Virus record (IMG/VR): IMGVR_UViG_3300013103_000027
Coordinates: 1 to 38,051 of that record
Origin: a virus
Length of the DNA stretch: 38,051 bases
Reading direction: 5' to 3' (one strand)
The notes below the pieces were generated by a model. That model saw only the letters and a list, made by a program, of their open reading frames with translations. It searched no databases and was not told where the DNA came from. Below are positions 15,391 to 38,051 of this stretch, piece after piece (the first letter of the stretch is position 1; the number at the start of each line of letters is the position of its first letter). The position numbers were made by a program, and so were the translations under genes.

Positions 15391-16881
15391 ATGGCAAACA
15401 TATCTGCAATCATAACTCAAACCGATACACCATCTACTGGCTGGTATAAAGCTAAGATATCAACTAATGCTTCTATTGAAGTAAGTGCAGTATCCTTATT
15501 TGCTACAAAAATGAATGTTGGTCAAGTTGTTGGTGTTATTCAATATCGTAATTGGAGTCAAGCACCTGAATTTGGCTTTGTTGAATTAAACGCAAAGCAA
15601 AGCATTGTTTATGTTGCACCACAAAATACTGGAGCTGTTACAAATCAAAATCCAAATAATACCGCTTTAGCTATGATTGCCAATCTTGTTGGTAATATTA
15701 AAATGTTATATCACCCTGCTACTGTAACAAAAGTTAATACTTCAACTTTAAATGTAAGCGATAGGGTAACAGGGCAATCATTAACCTTAAACGTATCAAA
15801 TGTTAAGGCTCAAGATTTTGAAGCTGGCAATGGCTGTTTAATTGAATTAAGTAGTAATAGAGTAATTGGCTTTTGGTTATGTGTGCCTGATTATGTTTTA
15901 CCTGACCCTGGAACTGGTAAATCTGCACAAGTTGGTTATAGCATAGAAAGAAACTTTGTTATTTTACCAGCACCTTTCCAAGTCAAGTTTGGCTCTTACA
16001 TAAGCTATAAAGAATTAAGTGGATATTACGTTTGGAAAGCTATCAACGAAACTATTTATAATGTGCCGAGTGACCCAGCTGGAACTGGTGATTATCCATC
16101 TATTACTATGATGAGTCCTATATCAAAATATATTTATCCAAATATGATGAATGGTGCACAAAGTTATACTTATCGCAGAAGATATAATAGACATACTAGA
16201 CTTTTTGAAGATAACGGTGGCTTGTTTGTAATAGCAAGGGGTGGCTCGTTTGTTTATTCTGATTGCCAATATTGTTTAATGGTAGGTGCTAGTGCAACGT
16301 GGGAATTATGTGATTGGGATGGCACTTATCTATCTGATGTAGATACTTATATGTTGGCTTTTATTGCTCGCTATCAAGCTGATGGTGGCACACAAGATAC
16401 TAATTATACAAGATTATTTGTAATGAATAACCAACCACTTTTTATTAGCAGAATTAAATATGGTTCTACTAGTGATTATCGTTTAAGTGCTGTAAATTTA
16501 TTGAATGGTAATATATACTTATCAAGCAAATATAATGTTGGCTCTACAGGAATATGGAGTAATGAAGGACATGATGATACTGCTGATGATAGATATTACT
16601 TTTTTGTTGGAAATAAAAAAATTAGAATAAATCCTACATCATTAGGCACGTCAGGCACATGGAGTTACACGGATGCTATTCCACCACTCTATCGTTGGGA
16701 TAGACCAATGAGTGCCAGCACAGGCTTAACACAGCCAGAAGGTGATGAATACGAGCCTTGGTATGATGGTCAAGTATTACGTAATGGAACGTGGCTAAGG
16801 TGCTTTCCAGGCTCATTCGGCACATTCGGCACATTTTATCAAACTGCACCAAAAGAAAATCATGTTTACAGTGCTTATTAA
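15391..16881 (+). CDS. Tail protein, unknown family
   Basis: 496 aa. I do not recognise a family. It opens with two strand-rich domains (about 1-170, including TVTKVNTSTLNVSDRV, an OB-like segment) and then a Tyr/Trp/Gly-rich beta region up to the C-terminus, where WYDGQVLRNGTWLR resembles a fibre-attachment motif. It is probably the tip or central-fibre protein, in the place of lambda J but less than half its size. The start is ATG 15391 behind AAGGAG; an in-frame ATG at 15370 overlaps the previous gene without a site. Confidence 0.6.
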   Translation: MANISAIITQTDTPSTGWYKAKISTNASIEVSAVSLFATKMNVGQVVGVIQYRNWSQAPEFGFVELNAKQSIVYVAPQNTGAVTNQNPNNTALAMIANLVGNIKMLYHPATVTKVNTSTLNVSDRVTGQSLTLNVSNVKAQDFEAGNGCLIELSSNRVIGFWLCVPDYVLPDPGTGKSAQVGYSIERNFVILPAPFQVKFGSYISYKELSGYYVWKAINETIYNVPSDPAGTGDYPSITMMSPISKYIYPNMMNGAQSYTYRRRYNRHTRLFEDNGGLFVIARGGSFVYSDCQYCLMVGASATWELCDWDGTYLSDVDTYMLAFIARYQADGGTQDTNYTRLFVMNNQPLFISRIKYGSTSDYRLSAVNLLNGNIYLSSKYNVGSTGIWSNEGHDDTADDRYYFFVGNKKIRINPTSLGTSGTWSYTDAIPPLYRWDRPMSASTGLTQPEGDEYEPWYDGQVLRNGTWLRCFPGSFGTFGTFYQTAPKENHVYSAY

Positions 16882-22179: not shown

Positions 22180-25100
22180 ATGAAATTTAAATTAAATATT
22201 TTACTAATATTTTTATTGCTTGTGTGTAGCTTTGCTAACGCTGAAGCTATAAAAGATGGTACTGCTGGTGGTGGCGGTGGCACATCAGTGCACAATAACT
22301 TAAGTGGTTTAAATGATGGTGATTATCAACATCTAACAGTAGCTGAGAAAGCTGCTTTAGTAGATGCTGCTGATATAAGTGATGCAGTTGCAGCTCATGC
22401 TATACTGAATGATACACATGGTTGTGATGTAATAGCTTCTCAAACTTACGTTGATGATGCTGTTGCTGGTGTAACAATACCAGACCATAATGATTTATCT
22501 GGACTTAATGTAGGTGATTATCAACATTTAACTGTAGCTGAGAAAGCTATTGCTATGGTTGTTAATTATGATGCTTTGTATAACACCTTTGTTGGTGATA
22601 ATGTTTTAAGTGTTATTACAACAGCTACCCAAAATGTTTTAATGGGTTACAATGCTTTAAGCTCTCTTACATCAGGTAGTTATAATACCGCTATTGGTGC
22701 AGCTGCGATAGCTTCGCTAACAACATCTGACTACAATACAGCTTTAGGATGGTTTGCAGGTTTTGGTAACAATCTAGGGCATTCAAATTCTATAACAGAT
22801 ACTAACATGACATTTGTCGGTGCTAATACTTCAAGAGATAATGTTACTGCAAACACTACACCTTTTACTAATTCAACAGCTCTTGGCTATGATGCAAAAA
22901 TAAGCAAATCTAATCAAATGGTATTCGGTGATGGTAACATTACTGAGAATAAATTCACTGGAAGTATCTTGCTTGATAGCGTAGCAATGCCTACTGTTAT
23001 TGATATTGATGATGCTGTTGCAATACATGCTGAAAGAAATGATACACATGGTTGTGATGTAATAGCTTCTCAAACATATGTTGATGATGCAATAGCTGCT
23101 ATACCTGTTGTAGATTTATTTGATGATGCTGGCAATACCTTTGTAGGTAAAGATACAATGGAAGCTGTAACAACTGCTTACGATAATACAATAATGGGTT
23201 ACAAAGCATTAGAAGCTTTATCAACTGGTAATAAAAATATTGCGATAGGTAGAGAAGCACTTAAAGCTACAACATATGGCTATCAAAATATAGCAATAGG
23301 GCAAACTACCTTACTCCAAAGTTTAGGTAGTAATGGTTGTATAGCGATAGGTCACGAAGCTGCTAAGCTAGGGACAGGAGGAACTAGTAATATTGCAATC
23401 GGCAAAAACGCTGGTAAAAATAGTGGTAGTAAAAATATTGCAATTGGAACTTCTTGTTTGGATGATGTAACTTCAGGTGGCGACAATATAGCAATGGGTA
23501 ATAGTAGCTTAGGTAAGTTAACCACTGGTATAAATAATACTGGTTTGGCTCCATACAGCTTAAATCAAGTAACAAGTGGTAGCCACAATTGTGGAATAGG
23601 TTACTTTAGCCTTGGAAAGCTAACAACAACAGATTATAATACTGCGATAGGTGATTTTGCAGGTTATGGTGATACAGTAGGTTATTCCACTAGTAAAACT
23701 GATACTTACATGACATTCCTTGGTGCTATGGCTTCTCGTGACTCTTCAATAGCTAATACTACTGTATTCACAAATTCAACTGCTCTTGGCTATGATGCAA
23801 GAGTAAGCAAATCTAACCAGATGGTATTCGGTGATGGTAACATTACTGAGAATAAATTCACTGGAACTATACTACTTAATGGCTCAGCAATTGGTACTGG
23901 TGGTGGTGTTGATACAGCAACAATAACAACAGCTATTGAAGCCAACGCTACTGATATCATAACAAACGCTGATGCTTTAACAGCTCATGCAGAAAGAAAT
24001 GATACTCATGGTTGTGATATTATAGCTTCTCAAACTTACGTTGATGATGCTGTTGCTGGTATAACAATACCAGACCATAATGATTTATCTGGACTTAATG
24101 TAGGTGATTATCAGCATCTAACTGTTGCCGAGAAAGCTGCTTTAGTAGATGCTGCTGATATTGCTGATGCTGTTGCAATACATGCTGAAAGAAATGATAC
24201 ACATGGTTGTGATGTTATAGCTTCTCAAACTTACGTAGATAATGCAATATCAGGTATAACAATACCAGACCATAATGATTTATCTGGACTTAATGTAGGT
24301 GATTATCAACATCTAACAGTAGCTGAGAAAGCTGCTTTAGTAGATGCAAGTGATATTGCTGATGCTGTAGCAATACATGCAGAAAGAAATGATACTCATG
24401 GTTGTGATATTATAGCTTCTCAAACTTACGTTGATGATGCTGTTGCTGGTGTAACAATACCAGACCATAATGATTTATCTGGACTTAATGTAGGTGATTA
24501 TCAGCATCTAACTGTTGCCGAGAAAGCTGCTTTAGTAGATGCTGCTGATATTGCTGATGCTGTAGCAATACATGCAGAAAGAAATGATACTCATGGTTGT
24601 GATGTTATAGCTTCACAAACTTATGTTGATGATGCTGATGCACTTGATTTAAAAATTGCTACATTTGAATATTATGTTGGTGCTACTACTGATGTTACAT
24701 TTACTGATGTTAGTGCAACCGAAATTACTATTAATACTTTTGATGTAAATTTAAGGGATAATGCAGATGGCTCAGGTTATCCTGTTAGCTATACTATCCC
24801 TTCTACTAGTTTAACTGTAGTAGTAAACGCTATTAACTTTATTACAGCTGATTATAACAGTGGCTCACCTATCGTTAAAGCAAGCACAAATAATGCTGAT
24901 GTTAATGAGAGTGATGTTACACCTGTTATCTTCTTATTTGTTGCTAGCGATGGCACAAAACATAGTGCTGTATTAGGTGAATTTGGTAATGGTTTAACTA
25001 ATAAAATACATGAAAGAATGTTACGCACAAACAAATATCAAAGAGAATCTGGCTTAGCTGTAACAATGGCTAATGCAGGTATTAATTTAACTTTTGATAT

Positions 25101-26034
25101 AAGCTCTGGCTACGTTTGGTTTGGTGCTACTAGACACGCATTAGAAGCGGTAGATTCTACTGTTGATTCTGTAAATTGCACAGCACCTGACGGCACACTT
25201 ACAGCTTGCACAGAGATGAATAATACACAATATTATAATGGAAGCACTTTAACTAATCTAAGCAATAATAGATACGCAGTAAACTGGATTTATCGTGGTA
25301 TAGAAGATGATAAAGAAGCTTATATCATGTTAGGTGAAGGTGATTATGATTTGAGTAGTGCAGAGCTTTCTAGCCCACCTGCTACACCCGCTATCATTAC
25401 AAGCCATTGTATGCTTGTTGCTAAAGTTATTGTGCAAAGGAATAGCAATACTGTTACTTCAAACCAAAGTGCTTTTAAACAAATATTCGGAATGAGCACA
25501 GCACAAACACATAATGATTTAAGTGGTTTAAATGATGGTGACTATCAACATTTAACAATAGCTGAAAAGGCTGCTTTAGTTGATGCTACTGATATAAGTG
25601 ATGCAATAGCAATACATGCTGAAAGAAATGATACTCATGGTTGTGATGTTATTGCTTCTCAAACTTATGTTGATGATGCTGTTGCTGCTATAAATATTAA
25701 TGATATAGCTGATATCGTAATAACTACACCTGATGATAAGCAAGTTTTGACTTATGATTCTGCGAGTGGTGATTGGATAAACGCTGTTAGTAATTTTGAT
25801 ACTGCAACTATTACAGCCGCTATTGAAATTAATACAGCTTCTATTACACAGAATATTGCTGATATTAGTGATAACACAAATGATATTGCACTTAATACAG
25901 CTTCTATTTCTGTAAACATAAGTGATATTAGTGATGTTACAGACGATACTGCTTTGAATACTGCATCTATCACAGCAATAATAAGTGATATTGGTGACAT
26001 ATCTACCGCTCTTGATGGAATTTTAAACCCATAA
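22180..26034 (+). CDS. Giant tail fibre with YadA-like head repeats and signal peptide
   Basis: 1284 aa, the largest gene here. Residues 1-22 are a textbook signal peptide ending in ANA-E. A 65-residue unit (NDLSGLNVGDYQHLTVAEKA) occurs near 37-102, three times in tandem at about 632-826 and again near 1109. Two stretches (about 130-270 and 315-560) carry YadA-head-like 14-residue repeats such as NIAIGREAL and NTAIG. The end is a Thr/Ile/Ser/Asp coiled coil (NTASITQNIADISDNT). A trimeric fibre is implied. There is no autotransporter membrane anchor and no S74 chaperone domain. Confidence 0.82.
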   Translation: MKFKLNILLIFLLLVCSFANAEAIKDGTAGGGGGTSVHNNLSGLNDGDYQHLTVAEKAALVDAADISDAVAAHAILNDTHGCDVIASQTYVDDAVAGVTIPDHNDLSGLNVGDYQHLTVAEKAIAMVVNYDALYNTFVGDNVLSVITTATQNVLMGYNALSSLTSGSYNTAIGAAAIASLTTSDYNTALGWFAGFGNNLGHSNSITDTNMTFVGANTSRDNVTANTTPFTNSTALGYDAKISKSNQMVFGDGNITENKFTGSILLDSVAMPTVIDIDDAVAIHAERNDTHGCDVIASQTYVDDAIAAIPVVDLFDDAGNTFVGKDTMEAVTTAYDNTIMGYKALEALSTGNKNIAIGREALKATTYGYQNIAIGQTTLLQSLGSNGCIAIGHEAAKLGTGGTSNIAIGKNAGKNSGSKNIAIGTSCLDDVTSGGDNIAMGNSSLGKLTTGINNTGLAPYSLNQVTSGSHNCGIGYFSLGKLTTTDYNTAIGDFAGYGDTVGYSTSKTDTYMTFLGAMASRDSSIANTTVFTNSTALGYDARVSKSNQMVFGDGNITENKFTGTILLNGSAIGTGGGVDTATITTAIEANATDIITNADALTAHAERNDTHGCDIIASQTYVDDAVAGITIPDHNDLSGLNVGDYQHLTVAEKAALVDAADIADAVAIHAERNDTHGCDVIASQTYVDNAISGITIPDHNDLSGLNVGDYQHLTVAEKAALVDASDIADAVAIHAERNDTHGCDIIASQTYVDDAVAGVTIPDHNDLSGLNVGDYQHLTVAEKAALVDAADIADAVAIHAERNDTHGCDVIASQTYVDDADALDLKIATFEYYVGATTDVTFTDVSATEITINTFDVNLRDNADGSGYPVSYTIPSTSLTVVVNAINFITADYNSGSPIVKASTNNADVNESDVTPVIFLFVASDGTKHSAVLGEFGNGLTNKIHERMLRTNKYQRESGLAVTMANAGINLTFDISSGYVWFGATRHALEAVDSTVDSVNCTAPDGTLTACTEMNNTQYYNGSTLTNLSNNRYAVNWIYRGIEDDKEAYIMLGEGDYDLSSAELSSPPATPAIITSHCMLVAKVIVQRNSNTVTSNQSAFKQIFGMSTAQTHNDLSGLNDGDYQHLTIAEKAALVDATDISDAIAIHAERNDTHGCDVIASQTYVDDAVAAININDIADIVITTPDDKQVLTYDSASGDWINAVSNFDTATITAAIEINTASITQNIADISDNTNDIALNTASISVNISDISDVTDDTALNTASITAIISDIGDISTALDGILNP
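24073..24657 (+). repeat. Three tandem 195-bp units in the giant fibre gene
   Basis: Units start at 24073, 24268 and 24463, each coding 65 residues from DHNDLSGLNVGDYQHL to a (V/I)TIP-type end. The third diverges near its end. Diverged copies lie near 22288-22490 and 25505-25690. Near-identity at DNA level suggests recent duplication or conversion. Confidence 0.85.
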
Positions 26035-28970: not shown

Positions 28971-29537
28971 ATGTTTACAAATTCTGATATAAATATAAAA
29001 CCAGCTATAAAGGTTGCTCTTGTAATCGGTCATTCGGCAAAAAAGCAAGGTGCTTGCAATGGTAAAGTTACAGAATTTAAATTTAACAAGAAATTGGTGC
29101 AAGATATTAAAAAGGAATTAAGTAATCAATATGAGATTGAAGCTGATATTGTTTATCGTAAAACGTATGAGAGCTTGCCTGACGACATTAATAAGCTTAA
29201 CCCAGATTACATAGTATCATTCCATTGTAATGCGTTTAATGGTGAAGTATCAGGCTCGGAAACATTATTCTGTATGCACAGTAAGAAGGGTAAAGAAATG
29301 GCAATGATAATGCAAGCTGCAATTGTTTCTTGCTTGAATCTTCCTAACCGTGGATGTAAGCCAAAAAGAGTATTTAATAGAGGTGGCCACCTTCTTGTGA
29401 ATACTAAGGCACCTTGTGTAATTGTTGAACCGTTTTTTTTGGATAATGATAGTGATTTAAAAATTGCTACCAAAAAAAGAGACCAACTCGTGGAAGCTAT
29501 AGCAGATGCCATTTCTGCGTTTGTAGTGATAGAGTAA
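28971..29537 (+). CDS. N-acetylmuramoyl-L-alanine amidase endolysin (Amidase_3)
   Basis: 188 aa, a bare catalytic domain. Zinc ligands and the active site of the Amidase_3 family are visible: H21 in VIGHSAK, E35, H85 in SFHCNAF, and E153 in VEPFFLDN. It cuts the bond between MurNAc and L-alanine in peptidoglycan. There is no signal peptide or cell-wall-binding domain, so it depends on a holin, which fits the membrane proteins upstream. It is the last well-defined gene before the terminators. GGAG 8 nt before the ATG. Confidence 0.9.
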   Translation: MFTNSDINIKPAIKVALVIGHSAKKQGACNGKVTEFKFNKKLVQDIKKELSNQYEIEADIVYRKTYESLPDDINKLNPDYIVSFHCNAFNGEVSGSETLFCMHSKKGKEMAMIMQAAIVSCLNLPNRGCKPKRVFNRGGHLLVNTKAPCVIVEPFFLDNDSDLKIATKKRDQLVEAIADAISAFVVIE

Positions 29538-29710: not shown

Positions 29711-29741
29711 CAGTTAGCATTTACATGTTAACTGTTTTTTT
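29711..29741 (+). terminator. Strong intrinsic terminator of the late transcript
   Basis: CAGTTAGCAT (29711-29720) pairs with ATGTTAACTG (29725-29734), ten base pairs with one G-T wobble, around TTAC. Seven Ts follow. Confidence 0.9.
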
Positions 29742-29762
29742 ATTACAAGCTTTCTAAGAATT

Positions 29763-29802
29763 TGCGAATGGACGCACATACGTTCCATCATTCGCATTTT
29801 TT
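29763..29802 (+). terminator. Second, tandem intrinsic terminator
   Basis: TGCGAAT (29763-29769) pairs with ATTCGCA (29790-29796); GGA-CG and CG-TTCC extend the inner stem with bulges. Six Ts follow at once. It backs up the terminator 22 bp upstream. Confidence 0.8.
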
Positions 29803-30418
29803 ATTTGGGGGTATAAAGTTCCGATATATTCTTAATGTTAAGCAAAAGTAAGAATTATTACTACGCGGCAAAAATCGTTTGTTTTTTTTGGTCCTAATAT
29901 TTTAGATATATTTTTTCTATAAATTTTTCTAAAGTACGTTTAGTAATATTTAGGTAGAGATATATATATCAAGCAAGTGAAAAATATCATTACTATATTA
30001 TATTTAGAGCTTTAAACATAATAACATATTACAAGTTCCGTTATTGAAATCATGCTTCCGTTATATTACGATGTTTTAAAAGCTAGGTAGATATATTTTT
30101 TCCTTGCTTGATAAAGGCATATTAATATAAAGAATATTAAGAAATTAAGACCTTCAAAACTGGTACAAAAGTTTCCTTTAGGACTTGGAATTTGATGCAG
30201 TGGTAGAGCGGGTTTGAAGCCATGTTGTAGTTGTGTTAAGTGTAAGATATTTGGCTGTTTTTGGCAACAAGGAACTTAGTATTAATGCTGGTTTGTAGTA
30301 TATTTAAGGGTAGGAATGGCTCAACTGTTAACGTCTCCACCGATTCCATTGATTTGATATTTTTGGCACCTAACTTGCTTAATTTTAAATTAACTATATC
30401 AAAAAGGGGAATTTTTAA
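29803..30418. other. Non-coding regulatory stretch before the HNH gene
   Basis: No gene seen; AT-rich with many stops. It holds a TCAAGCAAG copy (29969-29977) and an inverted copy CTTGCTTGA (30103-30111), each near a GTAGA(GA)TATAT stretch. TTCCGTTAT occurs at 30036 and 30056, exactly 20 bp apart, with TTCCGATAT at 29819. A weak promoter-like TTGCTT/TATAAA pair lies at 30105-30132. TTAATTTTAAATTAA (30379-30393) is nearly palindromic. This looks like a control region for the accessory genes. Confidence 0.5.
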
Positions 30419-31401: not shown

Positions 31402-31578
31402 ATGAAAAGTGAAACAGTATCAATTAAAGAAGCATGTGAATATCTCAATGTAACACCAAAAACTCTTAGAAAATGGTTAAAGATGGGCTTAATAAAATCA
31501 GAGAAAGCAATCAACAACCGTGTAACTATTGATAAAGCATCAATGGAACATTTACTAAAGAATTTTAAACAAAAGTAG
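31402..31578 (+). CDS. Excisionase-like HTH protein
   Basis: 58 aa, a single MerR-like winged helix of the HTH_17/excisionase type: SIKEACEYLNVTPKTLRKWL, a turn, then INNRVTIDKASMEHLL. Such proteins bind DNA as excisionases or small transcription factors. The absence of an integrase here favours a regulator. AGGTGGTGA lies 7 nt before the ATG. The stop is 10 bp before the next gene, whose GGGAG site overlaps this end, so the two form an operon. Confidence 0.8.
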   Translation: MKSETVSIKEACEYLNVTPKTLRKWLKMGLIKSEKAINNRVTIDKASMEHLLKNFKQK

Positions 31579-35832: not shown

Positions 35833-36027
35833 ATGAGTATAGATAATGCATTTGAAATAAATACTATACAAGAATTAGATAGTAAATATTCAAATATACC
35901 AAAAAACAAAAACGTTGTTATTACTATTAATGGTTGCCCTGATTGTGGTAGTAAAACAATGTCGTTTAACGTTACCACAGGGCTTGCTACATGCCTTAGC
36001 TGTAAAAAGAAATGTCCAGTTCTATGA
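35833..36027 (+). CDS. Small zinc-ribbon protein
   Basis: 64 aa from ATG 35833, with AAAAGGAG 6 nt upstream; a longer in-frame start at 35752 overlaps the previous gene. CPDC (about 36-39) and CLSC (about 55-58) form one ribbon. After the stop, the +1 frame remains open to the next gene and contains CEYCNNEYHNE without a usable start, so a single-base difference near AAAAAG (36003-36009) may have split a longer protein. Confidence 0.6.
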   Translation: MSIDNAFEINTIQELDSKYSNIPKNKNVVITINGCPDCGSKTMSFNVTTGLATCLSCKKKCPVL

Positions 36028-36133
36028 TAGAATAACAACATGTGAATATTGTAATAATGAATATCATAATGAAAATGTAGATTTCTCAGCTATTATCAGA
36101 TTTATAAAGAAGATATTTAAAAGGATGAATAAT

Positions 36134-36346
36134 ATGAAGAAGAATATAAACGATAGAGCTATGCCAGCCAAGCTTACCAACCAAAGATTACCATACCCAC
36201 CAATCAACAAGGGTGATAGAGTTCATGCCATAGAAGATATAATCACATGCAGGAAATGTGGGGGCAATGCTGTAAGAGTTATTACAACAAAAGGCACAAC
36301 AATTATATGTGCCGATTGCAAAGATAAAATATATTTCCCAGCTTGA
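36134..36346 (+). CDS. Small basic zinc-ribbon protein
   Basis: 70 aa from ATG 36134, AAGGA 8 nt upstream. The first half is basic and Pro-rich (PAKLTNQRLPYPPINKGD), the second a ribbon with CRKC and CADC. It is likely nucleic-acid or protein binding. The frame is open upstream to about 35915, but that part mostly shadows the previous gene. The stop codon lies inside the TTGACA of the next promoter, so the operon ends here. Confidence 0.65.
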   Translation: MKKNINDRAMPAKLTNQRLPYPPINKGDRVHAIEDIITCRKCGGNAVRVITTKGTTIICADCKDKIYFPA

Positions 36347-36371
36347 CATTGTAATTGCTGGATGGTATTAT
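36343..36371 (+). promoter_or_regulatory. Near-consensus sigma-70 promoter
   Basis: TTGACA (36343-36348), exactly 17 nt, then TATTAT (36366-36371): the best plus-strand promoter in the window. Transcription would start near 36378, yet the first credible ORF begins at 36527, beyond a terminator. Confidence 0.75.
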
Positions 36372-36377
36372 CTACCT

Positions 36378-36500
36378 AACAAATCCCCCACACCAATCCC
36401 AACCATTGGTAGGTGAAGTGCATTTGGGGGGATATCTTTGTTTGTCATGGTATATTTCTTGGGGTAAGAGAGCTGGCATTAATTTGCTGGCTCTTTTTTT
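36378..36500 (+). ncRNA. Candidate small RNA or attenuated leader
   Basis: About 120 nt between a strong promoter and an intrinsic terminator, with no convincing ORF. Visible folding: ACCAAT pairs with ATTGGT around CCCAACC (36392-36410), enclosed by ATCCCCC and GGGGGGAT (ending at 36433), then the terminator hairpin. It could be a trans-acting small RNA, or a leader that conditionally lets transcription into the HAD gene. Confidence 0.5.
36466..36500 (+). terminator. Intrinsic terminator before the HAD gene
   Basis: AAGAGAGCTGGC (36466-36477) pairs with GCTGGCTCTTTT (36486-36497), with wobbles, around ATTAATTT, and the arm runs into seven Ts (36494-36500). Confidence 0.75.
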
Positions 36501-36526: not shown

Positions 36527-36835
36527 ATGCAACAATTATTTCCAATGCCAAAAGCTTTTTATGTAGATGTAGATGGCACCCTACTTATCAACCACCAACT
36601 CAATACCAAGCTCGTATCTTTTATCAGGTTAAGAAAAGAAGAAGGGTATTTCACGGCTCTATGGTCAGCTCGTGGCTTAGAATATGCTCAAAAGATTGCA
36701 ACAAAGTATAATATCATAGATTTATTTGATGTTATTCTGCCAAAGCCTGGCTTACTCGTAGATGATAAAGGTTGGAGATGGACACAAGATTGTAAACGTG
36801 TGAGATTAGCTTATATTGATGCCAATATTACATAG
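36527..36835 (+). CDS. HAD-superfamily phosphatase, small
   Basis: 102 aa from ATG 36527 with GAGGT 7 nt upstream; an in-frame upstream start (36413) would run through the terminator. Motif I is DVDGTL (nucleophile D14, acid D16), motif II lies in LWSARG, and LVDDKGW supplies the C-terminal acidic residues. There is no large cap domain. Small HAD proteins dephosphorylate nucleotides, sugars or DNA 3'/5' ends; here the substrate is unknown. TAGAATATTCTA, a 12-bp palindrome, spans its stop codon. Confidence 0.8.
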   Translation: MQQLFPMPKAFYVDVDGTLLINHQLNTKLVSFIRLRKEEGYFTALWSARGLEYAQKIATKYNIIDLFDVILPKPGLLVDDKGWRWTQDCKRVRLAYIDANIT

Positions 36836-36913: not shown

Positions 36914-37195
36914 TTAATTCCATCCAAATAAAGAGTAGAAATATTTAACGATTTTATCATAAATACTTTTACTAATTACCTTCCTACCAACTATCCATTC
37001 CTCACACACCCTCTCTGCAATCAATTCTTTGTTATTATCAAATACTTTTATCACTGCAAGATTGCCCATGCTCTTAGTAGCCATTCGCTTCGCAGATTCA
37101 ATACTCCTTGCTGATATCTCTTTCATATCTTTTATAATGTTAGGAGATAACCTATTTTTGCAATATAATACATAAAATATTTGCTTAATATTCAT
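36914..37195 (-). CDS. Lone minus-strand gene, hypothetical basic protein
   Basis: 93 aa from ATG 37193-37195, with AAGGAG exactly 6 nt upstream on the minus strand. An upstream in-frame TTG at 37309 has no site and would span the promoter. The protein is basic and mostly helical (RLSPNIIKDMKEISARSIES, ERVCEEWIVGRKVI). The opposite orientation, own promoter and terminal position resemble a repressor-like or moron gene, but no helix-turn-helix or known family is evident. The function remains unknown. Confidence 0.65.
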   Translation of the reverse strand: MNIKQIFYVLYCKNRLSPNIIKDMKEISARSIESAKRMATKSMGNLAVIKVFDNNKELIAERVCEEWIVGRKVISKSIYDKIVKYFYSLFGWN

Positions 37196-37217: not shown

Positions 37218-37245
37218 ATTATATCAATAACAACAAGTTTGGCAA
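37218..37245 (-). promoter_or_regulatory. Extended -10 promoter for the minus-strand gene
   Basis: On the minus strand: TTGCCA, 16 nt, TGA-TATAAT. The -10 is perfect and preceded by the TGn extension. It lies 23 bp before the gene's ATG and gives a very short leader. Confidence 0.75.
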
Positions 37246-37578
37246 CAAAAAAAGACTCATCCAAAATAATAACATTATTTCCAGCCATAATAAAATGAGT
37301 TTCATTCAAACCAAAACATTATTATTTGCTTGAAGAAAAAACAATAACAATTATCATCATAAAGAAATAGCAGGGGGCTCTACCACAGCCATGATAGTTA
37401 ACATCATATATATAATATCATATCAACTATAAGCATAAGCATCAAGCAAGGAATATATAGGTATATCTCTACATTAATCTTATAACAATCTCAAAAACAA
37501 TTCATATGATAATCTTCTAGTAATTATCAGAAGATTTATATGCTTCCTAATATATCATCTTCCAACTTTTTAATTCTA

Positions 37579-37796
37579 GGGGGGCATATTCTTATTATAA
37601 TCATTTTATTATAAAATGTTTGTATTTGTTTGTAATTATTTTATAATAAATATCTTTCATATTTTAATTTTGGGGGGGGTATGTTTTACCAAAATTATTT
37701 AGAATAAACATTTATTTCTAAATCAGATTTTGGGGGGGGCATGTTTTATTCTCTATATTTTAAACCAAAATTGGAGAGGATATGTTTTGCCCCCCC
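37579..37796. repeat. G-tract repeats near the right end
   Basis: G6-CATATT (37579), G8-TATGTTTTA (37672), G8-CATGTTTTA (37732) and a degenerate GGAGAGGATATGTTTT (37772), followed by an inverted C7 (37790-37796). Spacings of the following ATRTT are about 95, 60 and 41 bp. Confidence 0.7.
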
Positions 37797-37952
37797 ATAT
37801 TTACCACAATATTATAAATAATCCCCCCATCATCCATCCACCCACCTAACAGCCCCACCACATCCATCAGATATATTGGATGATAATAATTATGAAGGGG
37901 AATATGGGGCAGGCTATCGAGTTGTCAGGTTGTCGCAATTGCAATCAGCTGT

Positions 37953-38038: not shown

Positions 38039-38051
38039 GGTAAAAAGGCAC
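38039..38051. repeat. Terminal direct repeat, right copy
   Basis: GGTAAAAAGGCAC, identical to bases 1-13. Joined, the unit genome would be 38,038 bp. Confidence 0.6.

Follow-up and report, generated by a model that had tools for sequence, protein, structure and literature searches.

The virus genome IMGVR_UViG_3300013103_000027 carries what is, by its motifs, a real and well-formed promoter–terminator pair in the gap between the last early-type gene and a gene for a HAD-family hydrolase. The pair lies at the boundary between early and late genes. This position is the most informative fact about the unit, and the genome context went unremarked in the original prediction. The favoured reading, to which a probability of about 0.4 is tentatively assigned, is that of an early/late junction where a late-side promoter is followed by a default stop and the HAD gene is reached by read-through. 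The pair probably yields a short leader RNA and may act as a gate on the late genes; the arrangement is already known from other viruses and was confirmed here by neither a relative nor an experiment. The window is the whole analysed stretch of DNA, which at 38,051 bp is the entire record and a virus record in itself.

Genome organisation and termini

The first 13 bases of the window, GGTAAAAAGGCAC (1–13), recurred as its last 13 (38039–38051), forming a cos-like direct terminal repeat. A second contig, L012, showed 98.9% identity to the first 12.9 kb and had its left end at the identical base. The repeat and the start of this contig probably mark true cos ends, and the genome would hence be complete. 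A GpA terminase and a portal of the lambda family are encoded as well, and taken together these features point to a cos phage with real ends.

The plus strand carried nearly all genes. From the left, the order was terminase small subunit (225), terminase, portal, capsid and tail genes, then an amidase (28971–29537). Tandem terminators after this lysis amidase (29712–29806, plus strand, at 29733 and 29796) were interpreted as closing the late run. Early-type genes followed up to 36346 and comprised an HNH endonuclease, a small HTH protein, a methyltransferase and several zinc-ribbon proteins. The last gene before the unit (36134–36346, plus strand) was an ORF with weak zinc-ribbon matches, encoding 70 aa from ATG 36134 or 73 aa from 36125. 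The right end held the promoter–terminator unit, the HAD gene (36527–36835), a convergent minus-strand gene (36914–37195) and a long non-coding end. In the motif scan, the convergent gene had a promoter of its own, TTGCCA-16-TATAAT with an extended −10 (37218–37245, minus strand), and a promoter-like site was present at 145–174, ahead of the terminase. A tRNA search gave no result.

Several other features of the genome were recorded. In the region 35833–36346, a 64-aa zinc-ribbon ORF ended at a stop (CTA TGA, 36022–36027), where a +1 shift enters the open frame DRITTCEYCNNEYH...; this frame had no start codon before 36125/36134. A programmed +1 frameshift, a broken gene and a sequence error are candidate readings. 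A second promoter–terminator pair was located on the minus strand, with TTGATA-16-TATTAT (31423–31396) and a terminator (31098–31076) about 300 nt apart. Repeats surrounding G or C runs six to eight bases long (37571–37830 and 127–133) clustered in the non-coding right end by cos, for example TTTTGGGGGGGGYATGTTTTA at about 37670 and about 37730. The tail-fibre-like gene 22180–26034 contained 195-nt repeated modules at 22183–25713, which were up to 95% alike; the sister contig matched several copies of them.

Promoter and terminator

A sigma-70-type promoter, TTGACA-17-TATTAT with an extended −10, was identified at 36343–36371 on the plus strand by sequence and motif scan. It comprised TTGACA at 36343–36348, a spacer of 17 nt and TATTAT at 36366–36371, with TG ahead of the −10. 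The −35 overlapped the TGA that ends the upstream gene, and transcription would be expected to start near 36378. As originally predicted, it was the best plus-strand promoter, being the only plus-strand site of at least 11/12 in the window. The one other site at this threshold was that of the convergent gene, 37245–37218 on the minus strand. Shuffled windows held 2.2 sites of 11/12 per window, a figure that fell to 0.075 when an extended −10 was required; the window itself had two of the latter kind.

An inverted repeat, CCAGC-14-GCTGG (36338–36361, plus strand), bracketed the −35 and ran into the spacer. The pattern CCAGC-N10..20-GCTGG had a single occurrence in the window. The repeat was noticed after the fact and then tested: within 50 nt, a G+C-rich 5-bp inverted repeat arose in 9 of 1000 shuffles, and 17 of the 1521 such stretches of the window contained one. 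It is unusual and is treated as a lead only, a putative protein-binding site.

The intrinsic terminator (36466–36500, plus strand) consisted of a 13-bp stem (36466–36497), a loop of 6 and a run of seven T. At −17.6 kcal/mol and a z of −5.8, equalled by 0 of 200 shuffles, it was the strongest plus-strand terminator of the window, and the strong terminator claimed soon downstream of the expected start was thus confirmed. Its mean pair probability was 0.96, and 29 bases separated the end of the stem from the HAD ATG. A promoter of at least 11/12 followed within 350 nt by a terminator of −14 or better occurred in none of 40 shuffled windows; promoter-like and terminator sequences are beyond chance. 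The gap between the upstream gene and HAD measured 180 bases and was conspicuous among the tightly packed genes. The interval had been described as free of a credible ORF, and this held: no ORF in the gap between promoter and terminator had support, and its translation was rejected. The HAD frame stays open upstream as far as GTG 36413.

Predicted leader RNA

Promoter and terminator predict a short terminated leader RNA of about 120 nt without a credible ORF (36378–36500, plus strand), as deduced from the sequence, the folds and the expected start; provided that it is transcribed, it would by definition count as a small RNA. Nested stems, with ACCAAT/ATTGGT inside a C-run/G-run pairing, had been described for this interval. 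They were no better than chance and were rejected as a sign of a functional RNA. The 87 nt before the terminator (36378–36464) folded with a z of +1.15, and 174 of 200 shuffles were as good; for the hairpin 36384–36434 the z was −0.83, with 34 of 200 shuffles as good. The inner ACCAAT/ATTGGT stem had a pair probability of about 0.06. The C-run/G-run pairing reached about 0.6 to 0.7, and dinucleotide-keeping shuffles did equally well. The modest z obtained for the complete RNA (−1.93; 7 of 200 shuffles as good) arose because the terminator was included. The only competitor of the terminator was a small hairpin at about 36455–36473, which would compete with the terminator 5′ arm in the nascent RNA and was far weaker than the terminator. 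An Rfam search of the unit returned no match. Membership was also rejected for the best sub-threshold match, MicC (18.8 bits versus 90), which rested largely on the terminator.

In a scan of phage start regions, the linker 36438–36464 was predicted to form a long duplex of −23.9 kcal/mol that covers both SD and AUG of late gene 15391, and two other leader query stretches gave no target pairing. The predicted complementarity to a phage mRNA was not clearly beyond chance, with 11 of 200 dinucleotide shuffles of the linker pairing equally well with some phage start region. The predicted pairing with the start of 15391 is regarded as a lead.

The HAD gene and its relatives

The HAD-family hydrolase gene (36527–36835, plus strand) encoded 102 aa behind the SD GAGGT. 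It was assigned by an NCBIfam HAD-SF-IIB match (E 9.8e-6, below the curated cut-off), by alignments and by terminase neighbours; alignment with relatives placed the start at ATG 36527. Relatives of the protein were found in 66 loci, 40 viral and 26 genome loci. A GpA terminase lay within 4 kb of the HAD relative in 17 of 19 loci examined; the remaining two had a portal, alone or together with capsid. These 19 loci, with 20 ORFs, were picked out of the 66 for a large ORF nearby and included near-duplicates (L038 and L039 with the same terminase scores; L029, L035 and L044 alike), so the 17 are not independent cases. The count suggests a packaging-cluster family. Across the joined ends, the phage matched the neighbourhood of the relatives, with HAD followed by the terminase small subunit; that HAD precedes the terminase across cos follows from the 13-nt terminal repeat and the second contig with the same start base. 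A literature search on HAD and terminase found no packaging role for the short HAD family. Among the loci examined, the short HAD hydrolase family (L022–L066) recurred next to GpA terminase in phages as well as in prophage-like contigs. One relative (46%, L061) came from a contig in the assembly of a methanotrophic gill symbiont of Bathymodiolus brooksi, a possible habitat hint.

No comparable unit was present upstream of other HAD genes in 38 of the 66 loci, which were the ones scanned; three of the 38 offered less than 250 bases upstream, and eight viral loci (L053–L060) and 20 weaker genome loci (L067–L086) were left out of the scan. L028 alone among the 38 had a 10/12 promoter-like site, located inside an oppositely oriented ORF, together with weak terminator-like sites (−9.8 and −9.1). 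The idea that HAD genes share a conserved leader was thus rejected, which counts against HAD-specific control by a riboswitch or attenuator. No phage DNA matched the region at blastn sensitivity, and a 25-base core of the unit had no exact match in IMG/VR. The sister contig L012/L021, about 95–99% identical in the main aligned parts, covered the left part only and did not include the unit. Searches through the neighbouring genes yielded no relatives for the zinc-ribbon gene or the minus-strand gene, and the methyltransferase relatives examined (L005–L010) had other genes downstream. No relative sharing the unit emerged from blastn, the IMG/VR core search or the 38 HAD loci.

Comparison with known systems

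In the cos phage lambda, pR′–tR′ stands where early and late genes meet, with the Q antiterminator and with lysis genes downstream. The unit resembled it in its strong sigma-70 promoter, an intrinsic terminator within about 200 nt and no ORF between them. It likewise lay between early and late/packaging genes and faced the latter, and a short untranslated leader with a short terminated RNA by default is predicted here. The two differed in that HAD was located downstream instead of lysis genes, that a separate promoter-like site preceded the terminase and that no Q homologue was found among the phage proteins scanned. According to PMC4604602, pR′ with tR′, a promoter–terminator parallel, carries a −10-like pause element early in the transcribed region; the unit had only AACCAT at 36401, which matched 3/6 and was too far downstream.

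A second likeness was to alpB and PA0807 of Pseudomonas aeruginosa, where AlpA acts by antitermination and a promoter is followed by a terminator directly before the first ORF. PMC7969949 describes alpB as AlpA-controlled, with an intrinsic terminator that immediately precedes the first ORF, and places the AlpA ABE motif GGGACG-N5-GGTA between −35 and −10. In that form, the motif was absent from the spacer of the unit, where only GGTA was present. The regulator site of alpB/PA0807 lies within the promoter, and its counterpart here would be the putative site at the inverted repeat. The small HTH protein (31402–31578) matched HTH_17/MerR and no known antiterminator. Promoter–leader–terminator attenuators and riboswitches share the order of parts, but the unit was without a conserved aptamer, a strong antiterminator or an Rfam match.

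A proposed gate at the early/late junction

The proposed gate draws on motifs beyond chance, on the gene order and on the link between HAD and terminase. Its placement at the early/late junction follows from the cos-like ends and from that link. A strong host-type promoter would be followed about 90 nt on by the intrinsic terminator, directly before HAD as the first gene of a late/packaging run that leads from HAD over the cos-like ends to the terminase and virion genes. Most transcripts, whether from the unit's own promoter or incoming from the early genes, would halt at 36497–36500 by default. The promoter's own product would be the leader RNA, and HAD, perhaps with the genes past cos on one late transcript, would be expressed by the read-through fraction. 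Read-through could occur via leakage or via a phage antiterminator loaded at the promoter. Among the good plus-strand terminators at cluster ends, two close the late run and the third is 36466–36497, which makes it a recognised barrier between the early genes and HAD–cos–terminase. The gate is further favoured by the promoter standing before the terminator and not after it, as in lambda pR′–tR′, in the pR′–tR′ that gives rise to StxS, and in alpB. The inverted repeat at the promoter also counts in its favour.

Against the gate stand a weak terminator-like hairpin over the joined ends (−4.3 kcal/mol for a short segment), the minus-strand gene with its strong promoter between HAD and cos, the missing lambda-type pause element and the lack of a similar unit at the other HAD loci scanned. 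The site at 145–174 may drive the terminase independently, and the gate would then be limited to HAD. Among the early and right-end proteins scanned, where unrecognised families are possible, neither Q nor an antitermination family was recognised, and PDB searches with two small proteins gave nothing telling. It is highly improbable that the gate is run by a phage antiterminator outside the Q family that loads at the promoter inverted repeat, with the leader also acting in trans on the 15391 start. The small HTH protein or the zinc-ribbon protein at 36134–36346 would be the candidate antiterminators in that case.

An arrangement without regulation is somewhat unlikely. An ordinary terminator would end the early operon, the promoter would be leaky for HAD alone or a chance match, and the RNA would be a functionless by-product. 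It is indeed ordinary for a gene cluster to close with a terminator, the leader shows no more structure than its shuffles, the unit is not kept upstream of the other HAD genes scanned and 11/12 promoter-like sites arise about twice per shuffled window. However, sites with an extended −10 are far rarer by chance, a promoter serving only HAD would hardly be expected ahead of the terminator, and the size of the gap remains conspicuous.

It is unlikely that the unit encodes a phage small RNA of about 120 nt that acts in trans, transcribed from a promoter of its own within the 3′ region of the early operon and pairing with phage or host mRNAs. The promoter, the T7 terminator and the lack of an ORF agree with it, as does the duplex at 15391, which recalls StxS of Shiga-toxin phages; according to PMC12101431, StxS derives from the terminated pR′–tR′ RNA and acts at stx1B. 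It is weakened by the shuffled linkers that paired as well, by the two silent query stretches, by the leader fold and by the lack of an Rfam match, a homologue or conservation. Still less likely is a cis attenuator or riboswitch of HAD, in which the leader would sense a ligand, a protein or the ribosome and set terminator formation. Promoter, leader, terminator and ORF stand in the usual order for this and the hairpin at about 36455–36473 would compete with the terminator 5′ arm, but this hairpin is far weaker than the terminator, and the leader is neither structured beyond chance, nor matched by an Rfam riboswitch or leader, nor present at the other HAD loci scanned. Both RNA readings are possible but unsupported by structure or conservation. 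The original proposal of a small RNA or of HAD attenuation therefore survives in part: a short RNA is predicted, and read-through control of HAD fits a terminator so close to its ATG. The structured trans-acting RNA has no support, and a convincing antiterminator is lacking.

As it stands, the unit is a well-made yet ordinary promoter–terminator pair, and the structural case for a small RNA is gone. If the gate is real, an uncultured cos phage that lacks a recognisable Q protein would offer an early/late switch open to testing, and two small proteins would stand out as possible antiterminators.
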